From: a virus
Direction: 5' to 3' (one strand)
DNA length: 36,436 bases
Virus record (IMG/VR): IMGVR_UViG_3300042518_001245
Span: 1-36,436 of that record
Under the pieces are notes generated by a model. It searched no databases and was not told where the DNA came from. It worked only from the letters and a program-made list of their open reading frames with translations. Numbering within the stretch: position 1 is the stretch's first letter; each line of letters begins with the position of its first letter. Shown here piece after piece: positions 2,855 through 35,542 of the stretch. Both the position numbers and the translations under genes were made by a program.

Positions 2855-3102
2855 CCTACGAATTATTTTTAACAGACACGCCACACGCTAAAGGTAACGG
2901 GTTTTGGACGCAAAGTTTGGAACCATTTGAATTAGTGGAAAGCGAGTACAAAGGCTTCCAAGGAATAGGGCAAAGCGGAGAGGAACGGTTCGCATTCGCT
3001 GAACATTACCAAGCCCACCACGCCATAGAAACCCTCAATAGCCAGCTAGAAGCGTACCGAAGCAAACAGTTAAGCTTGATCATTAAGGAAAAAACGCGAT
3101 GA
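2851..3102 (+). CDS. Hypothetical protein, 83 aa
   Basis: A small soluble protein of unknown family, coupled at both ends by ATGA overlaps with its neighbours. The N-terminal half is rich in aromatic residues (GFWTQSLEPFELVE), and the C-terminal half is probably helical. Nothing in it points to an enzyme. The tight packing within the early operon is the main support for it being real. Confidence 0.6.
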   Translation: MTYELFLTDTPHAKGNGFWTQSLEPFELVESEYKGFQGIGQSGEERFAFAEHYQAHHAIETLNSQLEAYRSKQLSLIIKEKTR

Positions 3103-3326
3103 AGATTAAAATCAGAGAAATGGCACTCACACGCAAAGGCTGGAGCCTTTACAAGCTGGCAGAAGAGCTAGGCATCAACAAGCCGACCGTGTACGGCTGG
3201 CAAAAGGGACACGCCCAGCCAAACACTAGAAACATGGATAAGCTTTGCAGTGTACTTGATTGCACAATGGACGATCTGTTTGAAGCGGAGCCAGTGGAGG
3301 TGCGGGCATGCACCCAAATCAACTAA
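3099..3326 (+). CDS. XRE-family helix-turn-helix regulator, 75 aa
   Basis: A short DNA-binding protein with a Cro/C1-type helix-turn-helix over residues about 5-62: WSLYKLAEELGINKPTVYGW is the two-helix core, followed by the KGHAQPNTRNMDKLCSVLDCTMDDLF portion usual in XRE proteins. It lacks any protease or dimerisation domain, so it resembles Cro or a small repressor more than a full CI. The start overlaps the previous stop (ATGA). Its C-terminus overlaps the LuxR-type gene by 19 bases. Which operators it binds is not visible; the AAACAAG heptamers at 30908-30992 are one candidate, as inference only. Confidence 0.8.
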   Translation: MKIKIREMALTRKGWSLYKLAEELGINKPTVYGWQKGHAQPNTRNMDKLCSVLDCTMDDLFEAEPVEVRACTQIN

Positions 3327-3544
3327 CTAAAAAAGAGATGCAAATCCTTAAAATGATTGGCGTGGGCAAAACACCGCATGAAATTGCAAACAAGCTCACA
3401 ATCACACACACGACGGTTAGATGCCACTTAACGACAATCTACCAAAAACTAGGCGTTCACGACCGCACGAATGCCTGTTTGTATGCGTTAAAAAGCGGAA
3501 TTGTATCACTAGACGACTTGGAGCCACTAGAATTATGGTTTTAG
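3308..3544 (+). CDS. Stand-alone LuxR/GerE-type HTH protein, 78 aa
   Basis: The protein is essentially a single GerE helix-turn-helix domain: LTKKEMQILKMIGVGKTPHEIANKLTI is followed by THTTVRCHLTTIYQKLGVHDRTNA, the standard recognition helix pattern of LuxR-type activators. There is no receiver or ligand-binding domain. It begins inside the upstream XRE gene, with GGAGGTG about 6 bases before the ATG, and its end overlaps the following small gene. A pair of adjacent XRE and LuxR HTH proteins suggests combined transcriptional control of phage genes, for example late activation; that role is inferred. Confidence 0.8.
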   Translation: MHPNQLTKKEMQILKMIGVGKTPHEIANKLTITHTTVRCHLTTIYQKLGVHDRTNACLYALKSGIVSLDDLEPLELWF

Positions 3545-4778: not shown

Positions 4779-5062
4779 GACGCAGAAATGATTATGTCAA
4801 ATGCTTGGCTAAAGTGTTAGAACTAGGCGTTTTAATGAATACCCCTATTAAAGAATGGGAAGCTAAAAAGAAAAAACGAAAAGATCCCTCCATCCCTATT
4901 TTTGTTCCTATTGGGATTCGTGGGTACAATCTATTAAATATCAAGCACATTAAATACCTAACATCCACCAAGACGCTAATATGCACATTTGACGGAGACT
5001 CCTTTGAAGAAAAAATACCATTTGAAGAAGCCCTTGAAATACTAAAGAAAGGCGGTGAGTGA
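4775..5062 (+). CDS. Hypothetical protein, 95 aa (GTG start)
   Basis: The likely start is GTG at 4775, overlapping the upstream stop and preceded by AAAGGCGGTGA. A later ATG lies at residue 21 (MNTPIKEWEAKK). The protein is strongly basic in its first half (KKKKRKDPSIPIF) and has a small beta-like segment (LICTFDGDSFEEKIPFEEALEIL). It may be a small DNA-associated protein, but no family is recognised. Ends in the repeated KGGE element. Confidence 0.55.
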   Translation: MRRRNDYVKCLAKVLELGVLMNTPIKEWEAKKKKRKDPSIPIFVPIGIRGYNLLNIKHIKYLTSTKTLICTFDGDSFEEKIPFEEALEILKKGGE

Positions 5063-6918: not shown

Positions 6919-8441
6919 TAGCTCATGGCCTCTTGTGCGAGAATGTCCGCCCCTACATCGCAAGGCGTCCCCGCTTGGGTCGTGATCGCTAAAGTCAAAA
7001 TGTCGGATCTATCCCCCTTCAAGTTGTTGAAGAGCTGAAAGAGGAAAGCCAAATCAATATCTTGTAAGCCTGAACCACCTGCGGGCAAAGTGAACTTAAA
7101 CACCTTCTCTCCACCAGTCATGGCTGTAGCCGCCACGTCCCTTTCGGCAAACGAAAAAGCAGAACCGACCGAGGTTAATGGCGTCCAAGATGCCCCTGTC
7201 AACACAATCGGCGAAGTGGGTGTACTTAAATAAAGCTCACATTGAGCCAGTGCGGAAGCTGAAATCATCATGCGACGAGGTAAAATTTGCCCTCTGTTGA
7301 TGATCCCAATCGTGTAGTTTTGACCCGCCACTGGAGCCACCGCCAAAGGCCCTTTCGTCACAACATCCTCAAGGGTTAAAACCCCTGTCGTGTTACTCAC
7401 GACACGAGCGGTATACATCACCCCGGCCACCACATAAGACACAAACTTACCGAGCCACTGGTTGACCGTCCACGGTGTACCCGTCGCCGTTAAGCTGGTG
7501 GTCGTCCCTGCGGTAATCGCTGAACTGGCTTGCGTGTATTCAATCGTCCCCATGTTTCTCATACGTAGGGACATAACAGGAAAGCGGGTTGTTGCTGCGG
7601 CGACCGTTCGACGAGGGCTACCTAACGCCATACCGTAAGCATAAGTGAAGCCTCTTTGATCATCAATACCACCGTCCACCGCCACCATGACGCCGTAGTG
7701 TGTCATTGAGTTTGTTGTAGCAACAGCTCCCAAGTTACGTTGCTCATAACGTACTGGTAAGTTACCTGTCCGCGACCACGCTTGTGTCGCCCCTACGCCC
7801 GAAGCATCAAAACTATTGCCTTGACCAAACTCGTGCAAGATAATCGGTTCACCCTTAAGCATAATACCCCAACGAATCGCCCCCGCCCCATACCACGCAT
7901 ACTCAATCCAAACCATTTGAATGCGTTCCCAGCGAATCCCTTCAATGATTCTACGGTCACCATTCCATTCCGTTATAGGTATTCTTCTGTCCGTAGGCAA
8001 GCCTTTGCCATCACTACGAATGACGACAAACATCCCATAAGGGTTGGTTGTCGTGGGGTTGCCCTGCTCAAAAAATACACCGTTAGAATCATCAAGAAAC
8101 CCGACACGTTGCACTTGGTTAGCTTGTGCGGTTCCAAAGTTTACAGCAGTTGCCATTGCCATGGTTTTGCCGGGCTGGTAACGATGATAAGGGCGGGACT
8201 GGCGAATCGTAATGTCCCCATTCGCCGTGGTTAAGTTTAAGTTGACGCCTCCTAATTTAGAGTTATGGGTAATTGTCCCACCTCCCGCAGTAAACTCTTC
8301 CCAGCGCAATGGTTGTTTGCCATACTCAAAGTCAGCATCGTAAATGTTACGAATTTGTGTGACTTTCATGCGTCCTAAAGCATCTCTTAGGCGTCTTGGC
8401 AATACTTCTTTTTCATTTACTTCGGCATTATAAATCGTCAT
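6918..8441 (-). CDS. Putative virion structural or appendage protein, 507 aa
   Basis: A 507-residue, glycine/threonine/alanine-rich protein without transmembrane segments or signal peptide. The composition, with many short beta-like segments (for example the region around residues 290-360 with repeated T/S/V/G-rich strands), suggests a phage structural beta-rich protein such as a tail appendage, receptor-binding or capsid decoration protein. Residues 150-240 contain aromatic-rich segments (WNGDRRIIEGIRWERIQMVW then YAWYGAGAIRWGIML). It is transcribed together with the 146-residue gene upstream and the lysis genes downstream, opposite to the main virion block, which is unusual. I do not recognise a family; the structural call is inference from composition and context. 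Confidence 0.5.
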   Translation of the reverse strand: MTIYNAEVNEKEVLPRRLRDALGRMKVTQIRNIYDADFEYGKQPLRWEEFTAGGGTITHNSKLGGVNLNLTTANGDITIRQSRPYHRYQPGKTMAMATAVNFGTAQANQVQRVGFLDDSNGVFFEQGNPTTTNPYGMFVVIRSDGKGLPTDRRIPITEWNGDRRIIEGIRWERIQMVWIEYAWYGAGAIRWGIMLKGEPIILHEFGQGNSFDASGVGATQAWSRTGNLPVRYEQRNLGAVATTNSMTHYGVMVAVDGGIDDQRGFTYAYGMALGSPRRTVAAATTRFPVMSLRMRNMGTIEYTQASSAITAGTTTSLTATGTPWTVNQWLGKFVSYVVAGVMYTARVVSNTTGVLTLEDVVTKGPLAVAPVAGQNYTIGIINRGQILPRRMMISASALAQCELYLSTPTSPIVLTGASWTPLTSVGSAFSFAERDVAATAMTGGEKVFKFTLPAGGSGLQDIDLAFLFQLFNNLKGDRSDILTLAITTQAGTPCDVGADILAQEAMS

Positions 8442-15802: not shown

Positions 15803-16258
15803 ATGCCAGCATCACGTACCGTTCGAGACCCCGAACTTTTAGCCGTTGCCAACTTTTCAGGCATTACGGCGACGACCTTATTAAACTTTGTTGGAATCAA
15901 TGGATCGGTTGAGCCATCCGTTGACTTAGGCAACATTGATATTAGCTCCATTATTTTAGAAAGCGAAGTGACGGCAATTTCAGGAACCACTCCCACGTTG
16001 AGGGTGTCCACTAAAACGTCTAATAAACAAGCTATTGACGTCAACTCCGCCAATGCGTTGCAAGGCGACGGCTCCACACAGTTCCAAACGCCAGCTAACC
16101 AAACCGCCGTAGGAACGGTACAAGTAGGCTTGGCTCCACAGGCTTCAACTGGAGCAACCGCTAGCAATATCGGTAAATACTTGGGATTGCTTGCCACTGT
16201 TGGGGGAACTACCCCTGTAATCAGTGGACAAGTTCGCTTGTACATCAAAGGCAAATAA
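15803..16258 (+). CDS. Head decoration-type protein, 151 aa
   Basis: A 151-residue beta-rich protein with few charged residues and many Thr, Ser, Val and Gly. It starts with an extended segment (PASRTVRDPELLAVANFSGITATTLLNF) and continues as strands (VTAISGTTPTLRVSTKTSNKQAI, then TAVGTVQVGLAPQASTGATASNIGKYLGL). The composition and place right after the capsid suit a capsid decoration or head-stabilising protein. A GGAGG ribosome binding site lies before the ATG (15790-15794 region). No named family recognised. It is followed by a stronger intrinsic terminator. Confidence 0.65.
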   Translation: MPASRTVRDPELLAVANFSGITATTLLNFVGINGSVEPSVDLGNIDISSIILESEVTAISGTTPTLRVSTKTSNKQAIDVNSANALQGDGSTQFQTPANQTAVGTVQVGLAPQASTGATASNIGKYLGLLATVGGTTPVISGQVRLYIKGK

Positions 16259-19823: not shown

Positions 19824-20213
19824 ATGGCGATAGATCCCGCAACAATGATGATGATTGCACAACAAGTGCAAAAGATGAAGGACAAAGCAAACGAACCCGC
19901 TTCACCAGCAGGTTCAGGAGTCATGATGCCAACCCAAGTATTGGGCGGTGTGCCAAGCCCTAATGTTCAATCCCAACAGCCAATGTCACCTATGCGACAG
20001 GCAGGAATGGGAGCCTTACAGGGCTTCGCACAAGGCGGTTTAGGCGGTGCTTTAATCGGTGGCGGTGTGCCTTTAGTCCAAAACTACATGAACAATCGCA
20101 ACGAGCAACGCTTACAACAGCAAGCCCCCCCTATGTATTACAAGCCCACCGCCGAAGATGACAGCCCTTTTCGTCGTGCGATGATGCAACAGCTCCAAGC
20201 ACAAGGAAAATAA
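19824..20213 (+). CDS. Putative internal virion protein, 129 aa
   Basis: A short protein starting with a Met-rich helix (MAIDPATMMMIAQQVQKMKDKAN), then a Gly/Pro/Ser linker, then a Gly-rich hydrophobic segment (GMGALQGFAQGGLGGALIGGGVPL, pattern of a glycine zipper) at residues 55-80 and a charged C-terminus. The glycine zipper may insert in or cross a membrane during ejection. It lies 15 bases after the previous ejection-type gene. Family not recognised. Confidence 0.55.
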   Translation: MAIDPATMMMIAQQVQKMKDKANEPASPAGSGVMMPTQVLGGVPSPNVQSQQPMSPMRQAGMGALQGFAQGGLGGALIGGGVPLVQNYMNNRNEQRLQQQAPPMYYKPTAEDDSPFRRAMMQQLQAQGK

Positions 20214-20217
20214 AATC

Positions 20218-22041
20218 ATGGGTGCGAATCAAAACCAGCAAAACCAAGTTTATCAGATTGTGGCAGGAAACGGCTTGCAGACCGCCCCCTTTGGCTTGCC
20301 GATTGGAGAAAGTTACGACCCTACTAAAAAAGCCACGTTCGGACAGAAGCTCATGCAAGGATTGGGCTATGCAGGAGCGTTTGCTAAAGGATCTATGGAA
20401 AGCGGAACGCCTAGCTTATTAGGTGGACTAGGAGGACTTGGAAGCCAGTATAACCTTCAACAGTACAACCAAGCCCAGCTCAAACAACAGCAGGACGCCA
20501 TGGAGCGTGCGAGACAGGCGGAACTCCAACAGCAAGCAGAAAACCTGATGCTTGCCAACGAAGCACGGATCGCACAAGGCTTGCCACCGATTGACCCCAC
20601 ACAAGGCACTGGAGGCATGAGAACAAGCCCCGAAGACGTGAGATCAAACCTTACCTATGTAGGAAGTGCGTTAGGTAATCAAGCTATGGTAAACGAAACC
20701 CTTGGCAATGGATTTAATCCACAAGCAGGGGCGTTGTTGTCAGAAAGTTATATTACCGACCGTAACAGACAAATAAACAAAAACCTTACAAATATGGCAA
20801 CCCTTGGCAAAACATCAGAAGCCTTGACGGCAGGAGCCCAAGCAGGGGGCAACGTCAACACGGCAGGCGTCCCACAAAGTGCCATTACTCCAACAAGCAA
20901 CGGCGACCCATTCAGACAAGCCCTTGGCTTTGTCCGCAAGGCAGAAGGAGGCTATGCCAACAACCCAGCCGACAAGGGAGGAGCCACAAACCTAGGCATC
21001 ACCCAAGGGACTTACAATTCGTGGAGAAAGTCGAACAAGCTCCCCTCTAAAGACGTCAAGGACATCACAGAAGGCGAAGCGACCGCCATTTACAAGAAGA
21101 ACTATTGGGACGCAAGCGGAGCAGGCAAGCTAGCCAAGACAAACCCAGCCCTTGCACAGGTGCATTTTGACACCGCCGTCAATATGGGTGTAGGCAGAGC
21201 GTCACAACTCCTTAAGATGAGTGGACAAGATCCGAACAAGTACCTTGCCATTCGCCAACAAAAATACAACGAGTTTGCTCAAAACCCCTCACAAAAGCAA
21301 TTCTTAGAAGGGTGGACGAACCGAAACGAGAACTTAAAGAAATCCATTGCAGGCTTGCAACCCCAAGGCAAGGCTCCTAAATCCACCGTGGCACAGGGCA
21401 ACCCCCAAGCCCAAGGGCAGATTATGGGAAGCTTGAATGCGTACAATACCAGCCCACAGCTTCGCCGTGATGCGATACAAAACCCTTATCAAGTGGCTAT
21501 CGCAGACCCCGACGCTTTGATGCGTGGGTTTGGTGCAGGAGCCGACACGCAAAACGCCGTCAACAACACAAACTTGAACTACAGAGGGCAGAACATCCAG
21601 CAAGAGCAAAACAAGGTGTCTACCGCTTTAAATTATGCTCAACTTGCAGAATCCAAGCGACAGAATGATATTCAAGCACTGCAAGCCAAGACTAATGCGG
21701 AAGCCGTCGCCATGCAGAAAGCCCAAGAAGCCGAATCAAAAAGAGTGGGTCAGCTTGAGGCACAAAACACCAGGCTTACAGAAATCTTATCTAAGAAAGA
21801 CACCCCTCCTAAGCAGAGAGAGGCTATCCAAGCACAGATCGACAAGAACACCGCAACCCTTGGCACGATTCAAACAGGCTTGCCATTTAATCAGAACGGA
21901 CAGATTGACTTTTCAGGAGGCTGGGCTTCTCAACCGCAACCACAAGCCAAGGCTACCCCCAAACAGCAGGCTCCCAAGAGAGAGCAAGCCCCAGCACGAG
22001 TAAATCAAAAGTGGAATCCAAACACTAGAAAGTTTGAATAA
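20218..22041 (+). CDS. Ejection protein with GH108 peptidoglycan hydrolase domain
   Basis: A 607-residue protein. Residues about 230-385 form a glycoside hydrolase 108 domain, with catalytic Glu243 in the KAEGGYANNPADKGGAT pattern followed by NLGITQGTY, then a helical part including NYWDASGAGKLAKTNPALAQVHFDTAVNMGVGRASQ in pieces, matching the fold of GH108 lysozymes. The flanks are Gln/Ala-rich helices (residues 60-140 and 430-560). As it lies inside the ejection cassette and not near a holin, it is probably carried in the virion to open a local hole in the wall on infection. The gene shares a base with the next start (TAATG). Strong domain support; the virion placement is inference. Confidence 0.8.
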   Translation: MGANQNQQNQVYQIVAGNGLQTAPFGLPIGESYDPTKKATFGQKLMQGLGYAGAFAKGSMESGTPSLLGGLGGLGSQYNLQQYNQAQLKQQQDAMERARQAELQQQAENLMLANEARIAQGLPPIDPTQGTGGMRTSPEDVRSNLTYVGSALGNQAMVNETLGNGFNPQAGALLSESYITDRNRQINKNLTNMATLGKTSEALTAGAQAGGNVNTAGVPQSAITPTSNGDPFRQALGFVRKAEGGYANNPADKGGATNLGITQGTYNSWRKSNKLPSKDVKDITEGEATAIYKKNYWDASGAGKLAKTNPALAQVHFDTAVNMGVGRASQLLKMSGQDPNKYLAIRQQKYNEFAQNPSQKQFLEGWTNRNENLKKSIAGLQPQGKAPKSTVAQGNPQAQGQIMGSLNAYNTSPQLRRDAIQNPYQVAIADPDALMRGFGAGADTQNAVNNTNLNYRGQNIQQEQNKVSTALNYAQLAESKRQNDIQALQAKTNAEAVAMQKAQEAESKRVGQLEAQNTRLTEILSKKDTPPKQREAIQAQIDKNTATLGTIQTGLPFNQNGQIDFSGGWASQPQPQAKATPKQQAPKREQAPARVNQKWNPNTRKFE

Positions 22042-25000
22042 TGGTTTTATCATGGGAAGAATACACCAAAACCGACGGATTTCAAAACCTAAGCGTCGAA
22101 CATAAGAAGCTTGCAAGCGACCAGTATTTTCAACAAGTCGTCATGCCTAAACTTGGCAAGCAATACGACATCAAAAACCCAAATGTGTTAGCAGGGGCTT
22201 ATTCACAGTTTCAGCAAGAAGCCGTAAAGCCGACGCTCATAGATCCCCCAAACCAATTCCTTAAATCCCTTGGCAATAAATACGCCGAGCAGGCGACAGG
22301 CGGAATCATTGACACGCAAGAAGGCACGGACTGGCTAGGCTCAACAGCAGGGGCATTATTAGGCGGTGCAACAAACGTAGGGGCTGGAATGGCTATAGGC
22401 GGGGCAATCGGCTCCGTAGTGCCAGTTCTAGGAACCGCCGTAGGGGCTGGAATCGGTGGAACCCTAGGGGCAGTGGCAGGCGGATTCGGTCAAAGTTTGC
22501 GTGAACGCCAAAACGAGGGGAAAACTTTCGACCAGCTCGACGCAGGCGATTATGGACGTGCTATTTTAGAAGGCGGTATTAACGCCGTCCCAGTTGTGGG
22601 AATCGGAGCCAAGCCAATCACCAAACTAGCAACAGGGGCTTTATTTGATGCTGGCTTAAACGCAGGTGCCAACGCCCTAGGGCAACAGGTGCAAAAGGGC
22701 GAAATCGACGGCATGGAAGTGCTTCAACAAGGAGCCTTCGGTGCAGGCGGACACTTGGCAGGGGGCATTATTAACAAGTTCTTTCAAAAGCGAGCCTTAA
22801 AAGCCGAAGCACAAGCCCAAGCTCAAGAAGCCTTACAAGGTGTCGATGCGTCCCAAGTGGGTGTCTTGCCACAGGACGGCACGCCGAACGTCCGCACGGA
22901 TTTAACCGACGTCTTCCCCTATCAAGAAGACGCTCCCTTTGATGTGCAAGGCTTCAACCAAGACCGCACGGCACAGATTCAAACCGATTTACAAGCCAAG
23001 ATTCAAGAAGCCGTCACACTCAAAGCACAAGGGAGCCACAACGAGGCAAAACTTATTCGTGCCAGCCTTTCCAAGCAAATGAACACCCTAGCTAAAAATG
23101 ACGACCCCCTAGCCCGAGACTTTGCCAAAGCCCTAGACCAAATCGATACCCAAGCCAAAGCCTTAAAGCAGGGCAAGCCCCCGCAAGACATCATCCCTCA
23201 AGACTCTTTCGACCCCAACACGGCAGAAATAGGCGAAACACGCATCGACCCCAACACAGGCGAAACCGTCTATTATGGCGGTGAAATCACTAACAACCCC
23301 AACGCTCCAGACCTCCCCGACCCCTTCTTTACAGAAGAGCTTCAACGCCGTGAAAAAGTGAATACCCTTGAACCCATAGGAACACCAGTCAAGCCCAAGA
23401 TTCTTAAAGGCGACTTTGAAAAGGTGACGCTTAAAGACATTGAAGACGTGCTAGGCGATCAACTGGCACCGTCATCTAATGTGGGGCAGTCCTACGCCGT
23501 GGATACCCTTAAATCATTAGGCTACAAGGTTGATAAACTCAAAGCGTCTGCTAAAGGCGTGGATTCACGAGCAGGTGAAAACTATCGTGTGAAAGTGGCA
23601 GGAAAAAACATCATCTTTAAGGGGCAAGACCCATTCGCCACCGTTACCAATCGACTAAGCAAAGAACACGGCATCAACATTTCAAGCAGTATCGCCAAGC
23701 GTATTTCTAAAGACAAAAACTTCGACGCCTTGAACGAGCTTGTCTTGATGAACGACGATGAACTAGACCAGCAGTATTCAGAAGGACAAGGCACCGCAAG
23801 CCAAGCCTTCCAAGCCTTCCAAGAAAAACTTTCAGGCAACCAAGGGGCGGAACGTGATTTTCAAAGCAACAAGTCCTTTGCTATTCAGGAAGCCAAGACG
23901 CAGGAACTTCTCAACGACCTAGACAAAGCTCACACCCCCCAACACCTAGCGGAAATCGAACAGCGTTATCAAGACGTGCTAAATACCAGCATTTACCCCG
24001 AATACACGCAGGAAATCATCACCCCTAAACTTGAAGAAACCCAAGTGCTTATAGAAGGGTTTACGCCTTTAAATAAGGGCAAGCAAGAGCAGTTGAGAGC
24101 AAGGCTTGAACGTGACTTAAACCAAGCCCAAACACCCGAAGACATTGCCCGAGTGGCGGACGAGCTTTACAGCGACAACACCGCCAAAGCCCTAGTTGAT
24201 GAAGCCAGCTTTTACGAACCACTAGGGGCAAAACTACAGGAAGCCGAGGCACGAGTCAACGATCCGAACAGGGCAACCAGTGCAGAAAATGCACAAGTTC
24301 GTTCCAAAACGGAACCAACTGAACCCCTCCCCCTTAAAAAAGGAGGCACCGCCACATCACAAAGCGGAGCAGGCTCCCCACAAGCACGGCTCGACGGCAA
24401 GGCACAAGAGCTTGGCTATCAACACATCAAACACTTGATGCAGGGCTACAAAGCGATTGGCGGAGATCTCACACCAGCCAAGCTTAAAGCCGTGCTTGAA
24501 GCCAAGCCCGAACTTCAAGCCGTAGCGGATTCATTCAAGCCGTTGATAGGCAAGACTCACCCCGACGGAACGCCCAAGTATCCCGAAGAGATTGAGTTTC
24601 AAGAAGCCATGCGAGAAATCGCACGGACGCCTGAACGATACCTTGACTATGAAAGCGGTACAGGCAGACAGCAAAGCGTGAAGGAGCTTGCCAACAAAGC
24701 CCCTCAAGACTGGAACACTATCGAGCAAGTAAAGAAAGACCCAGCCTATGACTTGGCAAGCAACGCCACAAAAAAGCGTGTCGAGCTTATAGACCGCCTG
24801 ATGAAGCAACACAAAACCATGGACGTAGAAATCGCGACTGAAGGGGGCATGAGTGGCAAGGGTGGAGCCACCAACGCCATAGACGCCAAGAAACGGCAAA
24901 ACATCACCCCGTTGTCATTCGCCATTCACAACGACCAAATCGCCGTGAATGCGTACAACGCCGACGGACACTTTGCTAAGTATTACATCGACCTTGACCC

Positions 25001-30472: not shown

Positions 30473-30773
30473 TGCTTAACCCTTTTTTAGATTTGTGTCT
30501 TTTTTGTTCAGCACTATACTGCCAACAAACAAGCCAAGCCCCAAACAATAAAAAACCCAGTATCGTTGTCCCATGTTCATCTCCAAACTGTTGATCAAGA
30601 ACAGTAACCACCCCCAAGAATGGCAATCCAATCCAAATAGGGGTTGTTATGACTGCAATACTTTCCCAAAAACGATCCTGTGAATAGCTTCGCTTTATAT
30701 AATAAAAAAAAGCAAAAGCAACGCACCCCAAAATCAAAAAGCAAACAACCGTTCCAAACATTGGCCAGTCCAT
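30465..30773 (-). CDS. Membrane protein with about three transmembrane helices, 102 aa
   Basis: Hydrophobic segments at about residues 4-25 (MFGTVVCFLILGCVAFAFFYY), 38-60 (AVITTPIWIGLPFLGVVTVL) and 68-86 (TTILGFLLFGAWLVCW) give probably three TM helices, with a basic C-terminus (RHKSKKG). A holin, exclusion protein or other membrane factor is possible. The start has AAAGGATTG upstream. It is the first gene after the promoter at 30933-30962 and overlaps the Gln-rich protein gene. Family unknown. Confidence 0.55.
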   Translation of the reverse strand: MDWPMFGTVVCFLILGCVAFAFFYYIKRSYSQDRFWESIAVITTPIWIGLPFLGVVTVLDQQFGDEHGTTILGFLLFGAWLVCWQYSAEQKRHKSKKGLSNE

Positions 30774-30908
30774 ATTTCAATCCTTTTTCCTCTACTCGGC
30801 ACGTCCAAGCCGTCCCATTATAACCGAATCCCATCACTTTCGCAAATGCCAGTGCCAAAAGTGCCAAAACTCAAACTCCTCCAAATGATGTATTCAACAA
30901 ATAAATGC

Positions 30909-30937
30909 TTGTTTTAAATAAACAAGCTTGTTAATAT
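30909..30937 (+). promoter_or_regulatory. Sigma70-like promoter, plus strand
   Basis: TTGTTT (30909-30914) and TAATAT (30932-30937) are separated by 17 bases. It would start transcription near 30944, giving a transcript ending at the terminator at 31046-31081. The -35 hexamer overlaps a CTTGTTT heptamer. Confidence 0.5.
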
Positions 30938-30962
30938 AGCTATATCGGTTGAAACAAGTCAA
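30933..30962 (-). promoter_or_regulatory. Sigma70-like promoter, minus strand, for the small membrane operon
   Basis: On the minus strand TTGACT (30962-30957) is followed after 18 bases by TATATT (30938-30933). It would drive the two membrane protein genes at 30773-30083. It overlaps the plus-strand promoter's -10 region, so the two should compete, and heptamers lie on both sides. Confidence 0.55.
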
Positions 30963-31081
30963 CCCAAATCTTTAAAAACGATTCCAAACAAGTTTTTTAT
31001 AGCCTTTGCTCCTTAGGGAGTAAGGAATTGTTTTTAAGATTTAAATCACCTGTCTACAAACGTTTACAGGTGACTTTTTTT
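30944..31081 (+). ncRNA. Candidate small RNA, about 138 nt
   Basis: This untranslated stretch lies between a plausible promoter and a strong intrinsic terminator. It can fold into a 5' hairpin GGTTGA-AACAAG-TCAACC (30947-30964), a nested hairpin CCTTtgCTCC-TTAG-GGAGtAAGG (31003-31025), and the terminator hairpin. There is no credible ORF. The 5' loop and the segment at 30986-30992 carry the AAACAAG heptamer. It could regulate lysogeny or the flanking genes in the manner of short phage immunity RNAs such as those of P4, but no sequence family is recognised and expression is unproven. Confidence 0.45.
31046..31081 (+). terminator. Intrinsic terminator of the candidate small RNA
   Basis: TCACCTGT (31046-31053) pairs with ACAGGTGA (31066-31073) across a 12-base loop and is followed by C and seven Ts (31074-31081). 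It is one of the strongest terminators in the genome and has no upstream plus-strand protein gene. Confidence 0.8.
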
Positions 31082-31214: not shown

Positions 31215-31328
31215 AAAACTTTTGGTTGATTTTGGCAAAAAGTGTATCTAAAGCCTTGGCATTCGGCGTTTGAATGGGGGGCTTAAGAAAGAGATATTGC
31301 ATTTAAAAGGGCTTGAAAACAGGCTAAA

Positions 31329-32345
31329 TCAAAAGCAACTAGGCAAGGCTCTCACAAATCGCACTGCATCATGTGCATCGGCTTCAACGTAAAGCTGGGT
31401 CGTCTTTAGTGACGTATGCCCAAGCAGTACAGAAACCATCGTCAACGGTACATTGTGTTGTACCCATTGCGTCGCACAAGTTCGTCTTAAGTCATGAAAG
31501 TTAAGAGGAAACGGCACTAGCTTTCTTAACCGTCTTAGGGCAATTCTAGCCCCTTGATAGGTGAGATTGTTAAACAGTGTTTGACCTGTGGCGTGGAACT
31601 TCAGAGTCCACTCCAAAACAATCGCTTTCATTGATTCCGACAACACCGTGATGCGTGGCTTGTTACCCTTCCCTAATACCGATATTGTGCCTTGTTCAAA
31701 GTTTAAATGTTCAAGGCGAATCGCCAGTGCTTCGCTTATACGCAGACCACTGGTGAGCAGAAGACTTAGAAGCAGGCGCATCCTCTCTTTGTAAAAGGGG
31801 AGGGTGCAATGCTCATCTAAAGCTTTAAGCAGTTGTGAAACATCGTCTTGCTTGAGCTTATTTCGCTTAGCAGGGGTGAACCGTTTCGGACGCAAGCTTT
31901 CAATGCCACCTAGTGAAACGTTAAACCCTTGCGCATTAAGCCACTTGGCAAAGCAGATGAAGGCTTTGCGCATGTTGTCTTTCAAGGAATAATGACAGCC
32001 GTCGGCTCCGATATTGTCGAGAGCTTGCTTCAGCGTGTCTACGGTGAACGACTTCAACGACGGCACGACCTCGCTATGCTTCCAAAAAGAACGGATGAAC
32101 CCTTTGTAGCCCCGAATGGTTTTGGCACTGTACGGCTTAGGGTATCCCTTGCCAGTGCTTAAATCATCAAGCCATTGGTGCATCAAAGCATCAACTTCGT
32201 GTTCAGCTGGAAGATCAAGCATCCAAACATCTTTATCTTTGTAGCCTTTCACCTTGTGGGCCTTGTGCTTTCCTTGATAAATTTGTTTCTTCAAGGCAGG
32301 CATCGAGACCCCAAGAACAGCGGAAGCTTCTTTTAACGTAAGCAT
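31329..32345 (-). CDS. int: Tyrosine recombinase integrase with N-terminal HTH
   Basis: The 338-residue product catalyses site-specific insertion and excision. The catalytic residues of the tyrosine recombinase family are visible: Arg202 in TSGLRISEAL, Lys226 in LGKGNKPR, His284 and Arg287 in HDLRRT, His310 in LLGHTS and Tyr319 in TTQLYV. Residues about 60-165 form a core-binding SAM-like domain. Unusually, residues 1-40 (LTLKEASAVLGVSMPALKKQIYQGKHKAHKV) resemble an excisionase-like MerR/HTH_17 domain fused at the N-terminus. Start ATG 32345 follows AAAGGAG; an in-frame extension to 32447 lacks support. It lies beside the attP at 32474, with direct repeats between that could be arm sites. Confidence 0.92.
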   Translation of the reverse strand: MLTLKEASAVLGVSMPALKKQIYQGKHKAHKVKGYKDKDVWMLDLPAEHEVDALMHQWLDDLSTGKGYPKPYSAKTIRGYKGFIRSFWKHSEVVPSLKSFTVDTLKQALDNIGADGCHYSLKDNMRKAFICFAKWLNAQGFNVSLGGIESLRPKRFTPAKRNKLKQDDVSQLLKALDEHCTLPFYKERMRLLLSLLLTSGLRISEALAIRLEHLNFEQGTISVLGKGNKPRITVLSESMKAIVLEWTLKFHATGQTLFNNLTYQGARIALRRLRKLVPFPLNFHDLRRTCATQWVQHNVPLTMVSVLLGHTSLKTTQLYVEADAHDAVRFVRALPSCF

Positions 32346-32393
32346 GGTTTGCTCCTTTGTTTGAATAAACGAACAAAGGATCAAGCGATTGTT

Positions 32394-32442
32394 AATCGTT
32401 ACAAGAATCGTTACTTTTTGGTAAAGTTTCGGTTGTAAAGTT
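32394..32442. repeat. Direct repeats upstream of integrase (candidate arm-type sites)
   Basis: AATCGTTAC occurs at 32394-32402 and 32406-32414, start to start 12 bases. GTAAAGTT occurs at 32421-32428 and 32435-32442, start to start 14 bases. These spacings are near one helical turn and the repeats lie between int and the attP core, as expected for integrase or integration host factor sites. The GTAAAG motif recurs in the attP core. Confidence 0.55.
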
Positions 32443-32473
32443 GTCAAAGAACCTGTAGATCTAGTAAGGGATA

Positions 32474-32535
32474 TGGGCGCTCACGGGCTCGAACCGTGGA
32501 CCACCTGCGTGTAAAGCAGAGACACAATCTTTACA
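32474..32535 (-). other. attP: attP with the 3' part of tRNA-Val(UAC)
   Basis: On the minus strand, 32520-32474 reads as tRNA positions 27-73: anticodon stem TCTGC, loop TTTACAC with anticodon TAC (valine), stem GCAGG, variable TGGTC, T-arm CACGG-TTCGAGC-CCGTG, acceptor strand AGCGCCC and discriminator A, with no CCA. The 5' half is absent, so this is a phage attachment core that restores the host tRNA on integration. The likely crossover region is flanked by TGTAAAG (32510-32516) and its inverted copy CTTTACA (32529-32535), 12 bases apart, in the anticodon loop. Confidence 0.88.
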
Positions 32536-32586
32536 TTAAAGGCTTGAGCGGTGCGAAAGTATCGCTTGACATCACAAAACAAACAC

Positions 32587-32706
32587 AGGGGCTACGAAGC
32601 CCCTTTTCTCTTCGCCTTAGTGCTTGCGAGCCTTAAGGCGAGTAGAAGACTACTCGACAGGCATTTACATTGACCGCAGGGGTATTGAGAACCCCTGCTT
32701 TTCTTT
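32587..32706 (+). other. Hairpin cluster with two intrinsic terminators; possible small RNA
   Basis: First terminator: AGGGGCT-ACGA-AGCCCCT then TTTCTC (32587-32607). Then CGCCTTA (32613-32619) pairs with TAAGGCG (32634-32640) with GCT/AGC inside its loop, followed by GAGTAG-AAGA-CTACTC (32640-32655). Second terminator: GCAGGGGT-7 bases-ACCCCTGC then TTTTCTTT (32676-32706). No plus-strand gene lies upstream. A perfect -35 TTGACA occurs at about 32570 but without a convincing -10. It may insulate the lysogenic chromosome junction or encode a short RNA between the two terminators. Confidence 0.6.
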
Positions 32707-32816
32707 GAAAGGAAACTTACATCATGCCCTAACAATCAAGGCATCAAAGGAACCGCCCTTATGCCGACCAACTACCCTATGAAGCAAATTTTAGCAGTGG
32801 TGCTTGCTATGACAAA

Positions 32817-32840
32817 AAGCATCACGTCCTAAGCATGACG
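32817..32840. repeat. Direct repeat AAGCATSACG upstream of the plus-strand lysis block
   Basis: AAGCATCACG (32817-32826) and AAGCATGACG (32831-32840) differ by one base and are 14 bases apart start to start. They lie about 45 bases before the first gene of the block at 32886. The interval 32707-32885 holds no other supported feature besides the ribosome binding site AGAAGGAA. The pair may be an activator or operator site. Confidence 0.45.
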
Positions 32841-32885
32841 GAAGAGATAAACTGCTTATTTTTACCCATTTAGAAGGAACCCCCT

Positions 32886-33101
32886 ATGTCATCAATGAAT
32901 CCAATTATCTTCAACCCATGGGAGCCAAACAAACTCCCCCCCCCTAGTGTTCAGCGTAAAATCGACGCCAAGCATGGTGAAGATGCCATCGTAAGTGTGA
33001 ATGTGTCGATCCGTGATGAGAAAGCCAGCGACACGAAAGAAGTACTCCGTGAAACCTTGGCTTATTTAGACCGTGAGTTTGGAGGTAGCCACTATGCTTA
33101 A
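32886..33101 (+). CDS. Hypothetical protein, 71 aa
   Basis: First gene of the plus-strand block after attP, with AGAAGGAAC upstream of ATG. The N-terminal 25 residues are Pro/Asn-rich (NPIIFNPWEPNKLPPPSV), the rest is charged and probably helical at the C-terminus (KEVLRETLAYLDREF). No family recognised. It overlaps the next gene by 8 bases. Confidence 0.55.
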   Translation: MSSMNPIIFNPWEPNKLPPPSVQRKIDAKHGEDAIVSVNVSIRDEKASDTKEVLRETLAYLDREFGGSHYA

Positions 33102-35302: not shown

Positions 35303-35332
35303 GGGGAGGATAAACCCCCTCCCCTTTATTTT
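35303..35332 (+). terminator. Intrinsic terminator after the plus-strand lysis cluster
   Basis: GGGGAGG (35303-35309) pairs with CCTCCCC (35318-35324), followed by TTTATTTT. It separates the lysis-like cluster from the XRE/recombination operon, so these have separate transcription units or read-through control. Confidence 0.8.
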
Positions 35333-35347: not shown

Positions 35348-35542
35348 ATGGAACCTGATAGCGAATACCTTAAAAACATTCGTCTTGACTTGGGACTTTC
35401 TCAAAAAAAACTAGCAGAATATCTAGGTTACAGCCGAATCTATATTGCCCTTATTGAAACAGGCAAACGCCCACTCAGCAAAAACATTGAAGCCCAGCTA
35501 GATTTATTTTTTGATAATTTTGATAGAAAGGTCACAACATGA
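35348..35542 (+). CDS. XRE-family helix-turn-helix protein, 64 aa
   Basis: A minimal Cro/C1-type DNA-binding protein: residues 8-55 hold the HTH (LKNIRLDLGLSQKKLAEYLGYSRIYIALIETGKRPLSKNIEAQLDLFF in pieces: LGLSQKKLAEYLGYSRIYIA and IETGKRPLSKNIEA). It opens the operon for the cysteine-rich protein and RecE/RecT after a terminator, with AAAGGTGGTG before ATG, and overlaps the next gene by ATGA. It could be a repressor or Cro-like regulator of the early operon. It lacks a CI-type C-terminal domain. Confidence 0.75.
   Translation: MEPDSEYLKNIRLDLGLSQKKLAEYLGYSRIYIALIETGKRPLSKNIEAQLDLFFDNFDRKVTT

Follow-up and report, generated by a model that had tools for sequence, protein, structure and literature searches.

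Here we describe RNA1, a small RNA of 138 nucleotides predicted in a phage genome, which is almost certainly a real and conserved structured RNA and, judging by its sequence, is very probably transcribed as a discrete molecule. The best explanation of the evidence, which we put forward tentatively, is that RNA1 is an autonomous phage small-RNA gene whose main role is exerted in trans, most likely as a riboregulator. The window, by which we mean the whole stretch of DNA that was analysed, comprises 36,436 nucleotides (positions 1 to 36,436 of IMG/VR record IMGVR_UViG_3300042518_001245) and carries a 127-base terminal repeat, so it is probably a complete genome, circular or circularly permuted. 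Its gene content includes a terminase, RecT, an exonuclease, endolysins and a tyrosine integrase, and RNA1 lies in a non-coding stretch between leftward genes (to 30773) and the leftward integrase gene (31329-32447). The promoter region and the parts of the RNA are arranged as follows.

30873..30918, plus strand: upstream promoter region AAACTCCTCCA..TGATGTATTC.ACAAATAAATGCTT, conserved in five of five phages
30921..30932, no strand assigned: palindrome AACAAGCTTGTT, between the -35 and -10 positions, single copy in the window
30929..30937, plus strand: extended -10 promoter TG-T-TAATAT with predicted start at 30944, inferred from sequence
30944..31081, plus strand: RNA1, predicted small RNA of 138 nt
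30947..30964, plus strand: P1, the 5' hairpin GGUUGA-AACAAG-UCAACC, loop invariant
30966..31042, plus strand: domain closed by P2, a three-way junction enclosing P3 (30992-31003) and P4 (31006-31023)
31046..31081, plus strand: P5, intrinsic terminator hairpin UCACCUGU/ACAGGUGA (31046-31073) followed by seven U

The original prediction had placed a small RNA at 30944-31081, and these coordinates proved right to the base; the predicted start precedes the 5' hairpin by three bases, and the end is the last of seven T. The 5' hairpin, nested hairpin and strong terminator that it described are found at 30947-30964, 30966-31042 and 31046-31073 (with the seven T behind), and its count of about 138 non-coding bases agrees with the open reading frames that touch RNA1, all of which are short (22-27 codons). 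Its mention of "the only other terminator of this quality" does not stand, since several stronger terminator-like sites are nearby, for example 31148-31115 (minus strand), 30038-30006 (minus strand) and 32676-32698 (plus strand). The predicted RNA has a folding energy of -45.9 kcal/mol, whereas the mean over 200 dinucleotide shuffles is -22.0 +/- 3.4 and no shuffle folds as well (z -7.0); the minus strand of the same region folds less well (z -5.2). The homologues in L002 and L003 give z values of -5.7 and -6.0. Folding energy alone is not decisive, and relatives were therefore sought.

The comparison set consists of the window (G000) and four other IMG/VR phages (G001-G004), located by way of the integrase (L002, which corresponds to G001), the P1 hairpin (L003) and the block downstream of RNA1 (L007, L009). 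All four carry an RNA1 homologue in the corresponding position, and a search for a second copy found none, leaving one per genome in five of five phages. They fall into a long form (138 nt in the window, 142 nt in G001) and a short form (124 nt in G002-G004). A covariance model built from the 124-nt short form only recovers the long forms at 66-68 bits (E about 1e-13), with the window itself at 67.9 bits (E about 2e-13). MAFFT placed P2 wrongly when aligning the long with the short form, so the structural alignment was taken from this kind of model together with a hand-checked pair table. The five-phage model alignment has 41 pairs with 99.4% of cells paired and 11 of the 41 pairs changed on both sides, counts that lean towards structure because the alignment was fitted to the model and that come from only three clearly distinct sequence forms among the five phages; none of 500 shuffles scored as high, and slid versions of the alignment were at most 53% paired. 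The hand-checked comparison of the window with G001, which is independent of the model alignment, covers 38 pairs over all helices, 31 of them identical, two changed on one side, five changed on both sides and none broken. Some changes keep their pairs only as G-U, which assigns the RNA to the plus strand.

The P1 stem and its AACAAG loop are invariant across the five phages, save for one U-A to U-G change. P2 is 19 bp long in the window and 11 bp in the short form, its sequence is wholly different between the forms, and seven of the 11 comparable pairs are changed on both sides. In P5 a G-C to C-G swap between the forms keeps the pairing, and AACAA recurs in the P3 region. RNA1 thus has what is expected of an autonomous phage small RNA, namely a promoter and an intrinsic terminator conserved in five phages, only short open reading frames, and a structure conserved by compensatory change, which bears out its proposal as a candidate phage small RNA. 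Poor conservation of the stems across relatives, which the prediction had offered as a test against itself, was not what we found: the stems are kept, and with compensatory changes.

No Rfam 15 family matches RNA1 at the gathering threshold, in the window or in the relatives; the matches below threshold, of which the best was to rivX (22.8 bits against a threshold of 100, on the minus strand), were rejected as chance. A search of 50,697 phage records and 72,556 plasmids at blastn sensitivity gave nothing beyond one short chance match. Later scans of viral_contigs returned the same carriers only, an exact terminator-core pattern had no match there, and neither a RecT profile search nor the upstream promoter pattern nor a gapped P1-to-terminator pattern added any carrier. 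Two P1-hairpin matches in genome_contigs (L005, L006) come without the rest of RNA1 and were set aside as chance, as was a match to the RNA2 pattern (L008). The lack of any match in Rfam, phage records or plasmids suggests that RNA1 represents a new RNA family. The five phages carry two unrelated virion gene sets, yet have the RNA region and early genes in common. The terminase of the window is 99.7% identical to that of L003 while their RNA1 forms clearly differ, so the RNA region has recombined separately.

The promoter that the prediction named is plausible, with an extended -10 element conserved across the five phages as TG-T-TAATAT, TG-T-TATTAT or TG-T-TATTGT; it is not a consensus -35/-10 pair, its -35 is weak, and a simple promoter scan did not list the site. 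Conserved sequence reaches up to 75 bases upstream and ends at a sharp left edge, beyond which the neighbouring DNA is unrelated between the two groups. The 25-nt core of this upstream region is present, within viral_contigs, only in these five phages, and the region at 30873..30918 may be an activator site or an UP element. The palindrome AACAAGCTTGTT is a possible operator; a search for further operator copies found it to be the sole exact match in the window, with near matches at chance level. The motif AACAAG occurs in this palindrome, in P1 and in P3. At the other end of the RNA, no antiterminator fold rivalling P5 was found, and the 5' arm of P5 stays unpaired in truncated transcripts of four sequences. 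With no alternative upstream partner for this arm, the terminator should fold by default, and the competing antiterminator fold that characterises a transcription-attenuation riboswitch or leader was not found in RNA1.

A second structured RNA, RNA2, lies just downstream, followed by the early region; the two RNAs stand where early and late genes meet. These elements and the candidate regulators are given below.

31219..31325, plus strand: RNA2, a long bulged stem-loop with an abutting short stem-loop
RNA2 homologues: G001 32813-32933 (minus), G002 20088-20210 (plus), G003 15816-15938 (minus), G004 23778-23900 (plus)
31329..32447, minus strand: tyrosine integrase (PF00589, 4.7e-26)
31329-32560 in the window, 4189-4410 in L003, 12979-13224 in L009: variable slot
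32587..32698, plus strand: tandem terminator-like hairpins (32587-32604 and 32676-32698), 5' of the early operon
35303-35324, plus strand: terminator-like hairpin inside the early operon
3099-3326, 3308-3544 and 35348-35542, plus strand: regulator candidates (two Cro/C1-type and one LuxR-type HTH)

RNA2 is present once per genome and always downstream of RNA1 in the five phages, a search for a second copy having found none, and it is absent from Rfam. Five of its pairs show two-sided changes, 99.2% of cells are paired against at most 58% in slid controls, and one-sided changes to G-U place it on the plus strand. The gap between the RNA1 terminator and RNA2 is about 24 bases in the short form and 137 bases in the long form. 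By analogy, RNA2 is a possible put-like element.

Between RNA2 and the early-operon terminators is a slot of variable content, filled by the leftward integrase in two phages (the window and G001 only) and by differing small rightward ORFs in the others; no relative of the integrase was found in G003 or G004, and G002 gave weak chance matches only. In the integrase phages the order is thus RNA1, RNA2, integrase slot, tandem terminators and early operon. Both tandem hairpins also occur in L003, and their region is conserved in G001-G003. The hairpins ahead of the early operon (32587-32604 and 32676-32698) and the one within it (35303-35324) resemble intrinsic terminators and suggest phage antitermination. 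Pieces of tRNA 3' halves without an encoded CCA adjoin the start of the integrase (window 32470-32520; L002 about 4840-4880), and read as tRNA-Val(UAC) for the window and as tRNA-Arg(ACG) for G001. These are probably att cores with different targets and a clue to the host; when the host was sought by way of them, the matches, at 78-89%, were to tRNA genes of many bacteria and nothing else. Tandem ACCATT / GCTAG repeats lie 5' of RNA1 in short-form phages (L003 3500-3700) and resemble a repeat adjoining the G003 replication gene (about 8090-8160), so that they are possible origin iterons. G003 also has a 748-aa DNA methyltransferase-like ORF (22034-24280, L021), which by eye appears to be split by an intein-like segment.

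Acting in trans, RNA1 would work along the following lines. RNA polymerase would start at about 30944 and stop once the seven U are made; the product would be a stable RNA with hairpins shielding both of its ends. The invariant AACAAG loop of P1 would be offered to a base-pairing target or to an RNA-binding protein, with P2-P4 serving as a scaffold that can drift in sequence. The U-tailed P5 and the ARN-type AAC-AAG loops would presumably suit an Hfq-like chaperone. The best local candidate target, itself a weak one, would be the 5' end of a divergent membrane-protein mRNA that starts 120 bp away.

30796..30822, minus strand: divergent promoter TATAAT (30822-30817) and leader start of the membrane-protein genes, with the candidate P1 partner at 30811-30796

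The candidate pairing would join UCGGU-N5-CAAGU(C) of the small RNA to (G)GCUUG-N5-GCCGA of the mRNA. The divergent promoter and 5' leader (window 30773-30828, minus strand) are conserved in five of five phages, and the genes behind them differ. When translation starts were scanned with P1, the divergent leader ranked first in the window and in G002 and second in G003, ranks that come close to a single observation because the leaders are homologous. In four phages the pairing had shuffle p values of 0.003-0.05; in G004, where it is largely lost, the value was 0.43. Given homologous leaders and the testing of several segments, this pairing amounts to a lead, not a result. No RNA1 target was significant after allowing for the number tested, and a genome-wide duplex scan without accessibility was noisy and gave no common target. 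The 8-mers of the P1 loop have an 8-bp match in a small repressor gene (35385) in the window and G001, a gene that the G003 record does not show. The target is no less likely to be a host mRNA than the divergent leader. RNA1 also travels with the early region across phages of two unrelated virion modules. Counting against a role in trans, RNA1 is directly upstream of same-strand early genes in three of the phages, an arrangement that also fits a leader.

The main rival takes its force from RNA2: because RNA2 covaries in all five phages and lies ahead of the tandem terminators and the early operon, RNA1 may be the attenuated start of an RNA-gated early leader, which on balance we consider somewhat unlikely. 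The promoter at 30932 would then serve the early genes with P5 as a gate, infrequent or regulated read-through would make RNA2, which would act in cis on the polymerase, like put of HK022, and help it past the tandem terminators, and RNA1 would be a by-product or a second signal, comparable to lambda 6S RNA and the lambda late operon. In each of the five phages RNA1, RNA2 and the early operon run in one direction, RNA2 begins 24 nt past the terminator in the short form, terminators stand before the early genes and again inside the operon (35303-35324), and the window showed no consensus promoter in the stretch from RNA2 to the early genes; weak early promoters were possibly missed, however, and the scan had matches in G001-G004. 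RNA2 itself is under strong plus-strand structural selection and has two abutting stem-loops, as does putRNA (PMC9378689), although put measures about 70 nt against about 107 for RNA2. A put-like element could not act on P5, because P5 precedes it; P5 has no competing antiterminator fold, and in the window and G001 a 1.1-kb integrase gene in the opposite orientation stands between RNA2 and the operon. In a variant that joins both roles, RNA1 and RNA2 would form a protein-free early switch, in which the default terminator yields a trans-acting RNA1 and read-through yields a new put-like RNA2 that carries the polymerase past the tandem terminators and on to the early operon. We regard this combination as unlikely.

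The other rivals assign RNA1 to more familiar classes. As a prophage decoy for a host RNA-binding protein or RNA polymerase, RNA1 would make sense of the short invariant loop on a variable scaffold and of the AACAA repeated in the P3 region, but it matches neither 6S nor any other protein-binding family in Rfam, and we think this quite unlikely. The original prediction had suggested an immunity RNA of the P4 CI / C4 type, one that would pair with the early leader and force termination. A co-directional structured RNA 5' of an early operon with leader terminators fits that picture, and CUUCUCUACCCCUUU in the leader downstream is able to pair with about 13 of the 14 nt that make up the 3' arm of helix P4 in the short form. 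In the window and G001, however, the complementarity does not exceed chance, the best leader duplex being at -22.9 in the window against a shuffled mean of -23.1 and at -25.5 in G001 against -27.4. It is uneven in the other phages, of which G003 alone outdoes all 15 shuffles, through a different segment. Rfam C4 gives no match at E up to 10, and RNA1, although co-directional with the early operon, seems to have its own promoter and terminator instead of being cut from the target leader, so that the suggestion must be judged very unlikely. Its premise, that no CI protein is in evidence, holds in that the proteins scanned include no full-length CI with a peptidase domain, and fails in that two Cro/C1-type HTH proteins are encoded at 3099-3326 and 35348-35542, so that repressor candidates exist. 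A control role of some kind for RNA1 is possible. A type I antitoxin directed at the divergent small membrane proteins is highly improbable: the divergent neighbour does code for hydrophobic proteins and its leader is partly complementary to P1, but the divergent type I pairs already described are complementary over long stretches, whereas here there are about 6 + 5 bp around an internal loop of 5 x 5, a pairing that G004 has lost, and the neighbouring genes vary between phages and encode 100-220 aa. Hardly any credence can be given to a DNA element (an origin or operator cluster) or to chance hairpins, for which the AACAAG copies in the promoter palindrome, P1 and P3 and the upstream repeats of the short-form phages might speak, in the face of covariation, one-strand G-U changes, a seven-U terminator and a conserved promoter.

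On comparative sequence grounds RNA1 appears to form a new family of the general kind of phage small RNAs. A listing under CI/C4, type I antitoxin or riboswitch would be inappropriate, since defining features of these classes were looked for in it and not found. Phage small RNAs of varied function are known, such as PreS of lambda and VpdS of VP882 (PMC12197685). Like these, RNA1 is a short intergenic phage RNA, one with its own promoter and intrinsic terminator; unlike them in sequence and structure, it has an invariant 5' hairpin and a covarying three-way junction. IsrK of Gifsy-1 has a short isoform produced by termination, with read-through reaching an ORF and anrP (PMC4825925). RNA1 would share the terminated short form and possible downstream read-through, but the read-through would reach another structured RNA, and Rfam reports no similarity. 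With P4 CI and C4 it has in common the place of a structured non-coding RNA 5' of an early operon that runs in the same direction and has terminators in its leader, and it differs in lacking complementarity of the seqA/seqC type above chance, in having its own promoter and terminator, and in having no Rfam match. In the putRNA of HK022, two bulged stem-loops abut one another upstream of the terminators of the early genes (PMC9378689). The layout of RNA2, not that of RNA1, resembles this one; RNA2 differs in being longer, in occurring as one copy per genome and in lying behind a terminator.

Phage small RNAs outside enteric model hosts are almost unmapped, and in the present case comparative evidence alone defines a family absent from Rfam by its promoter, its invariant recognition loop and its drifting scaffold. 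RNA1 moves between phages with unrelated virion genes and is therefore a control or accessory module, not debris. With RNA2 just 3' of RNA1, RNA-based early control is directly testable in these phages, and if the protein-free switch were true, the choice between lysis and lysogeny would be set largely by RNA.
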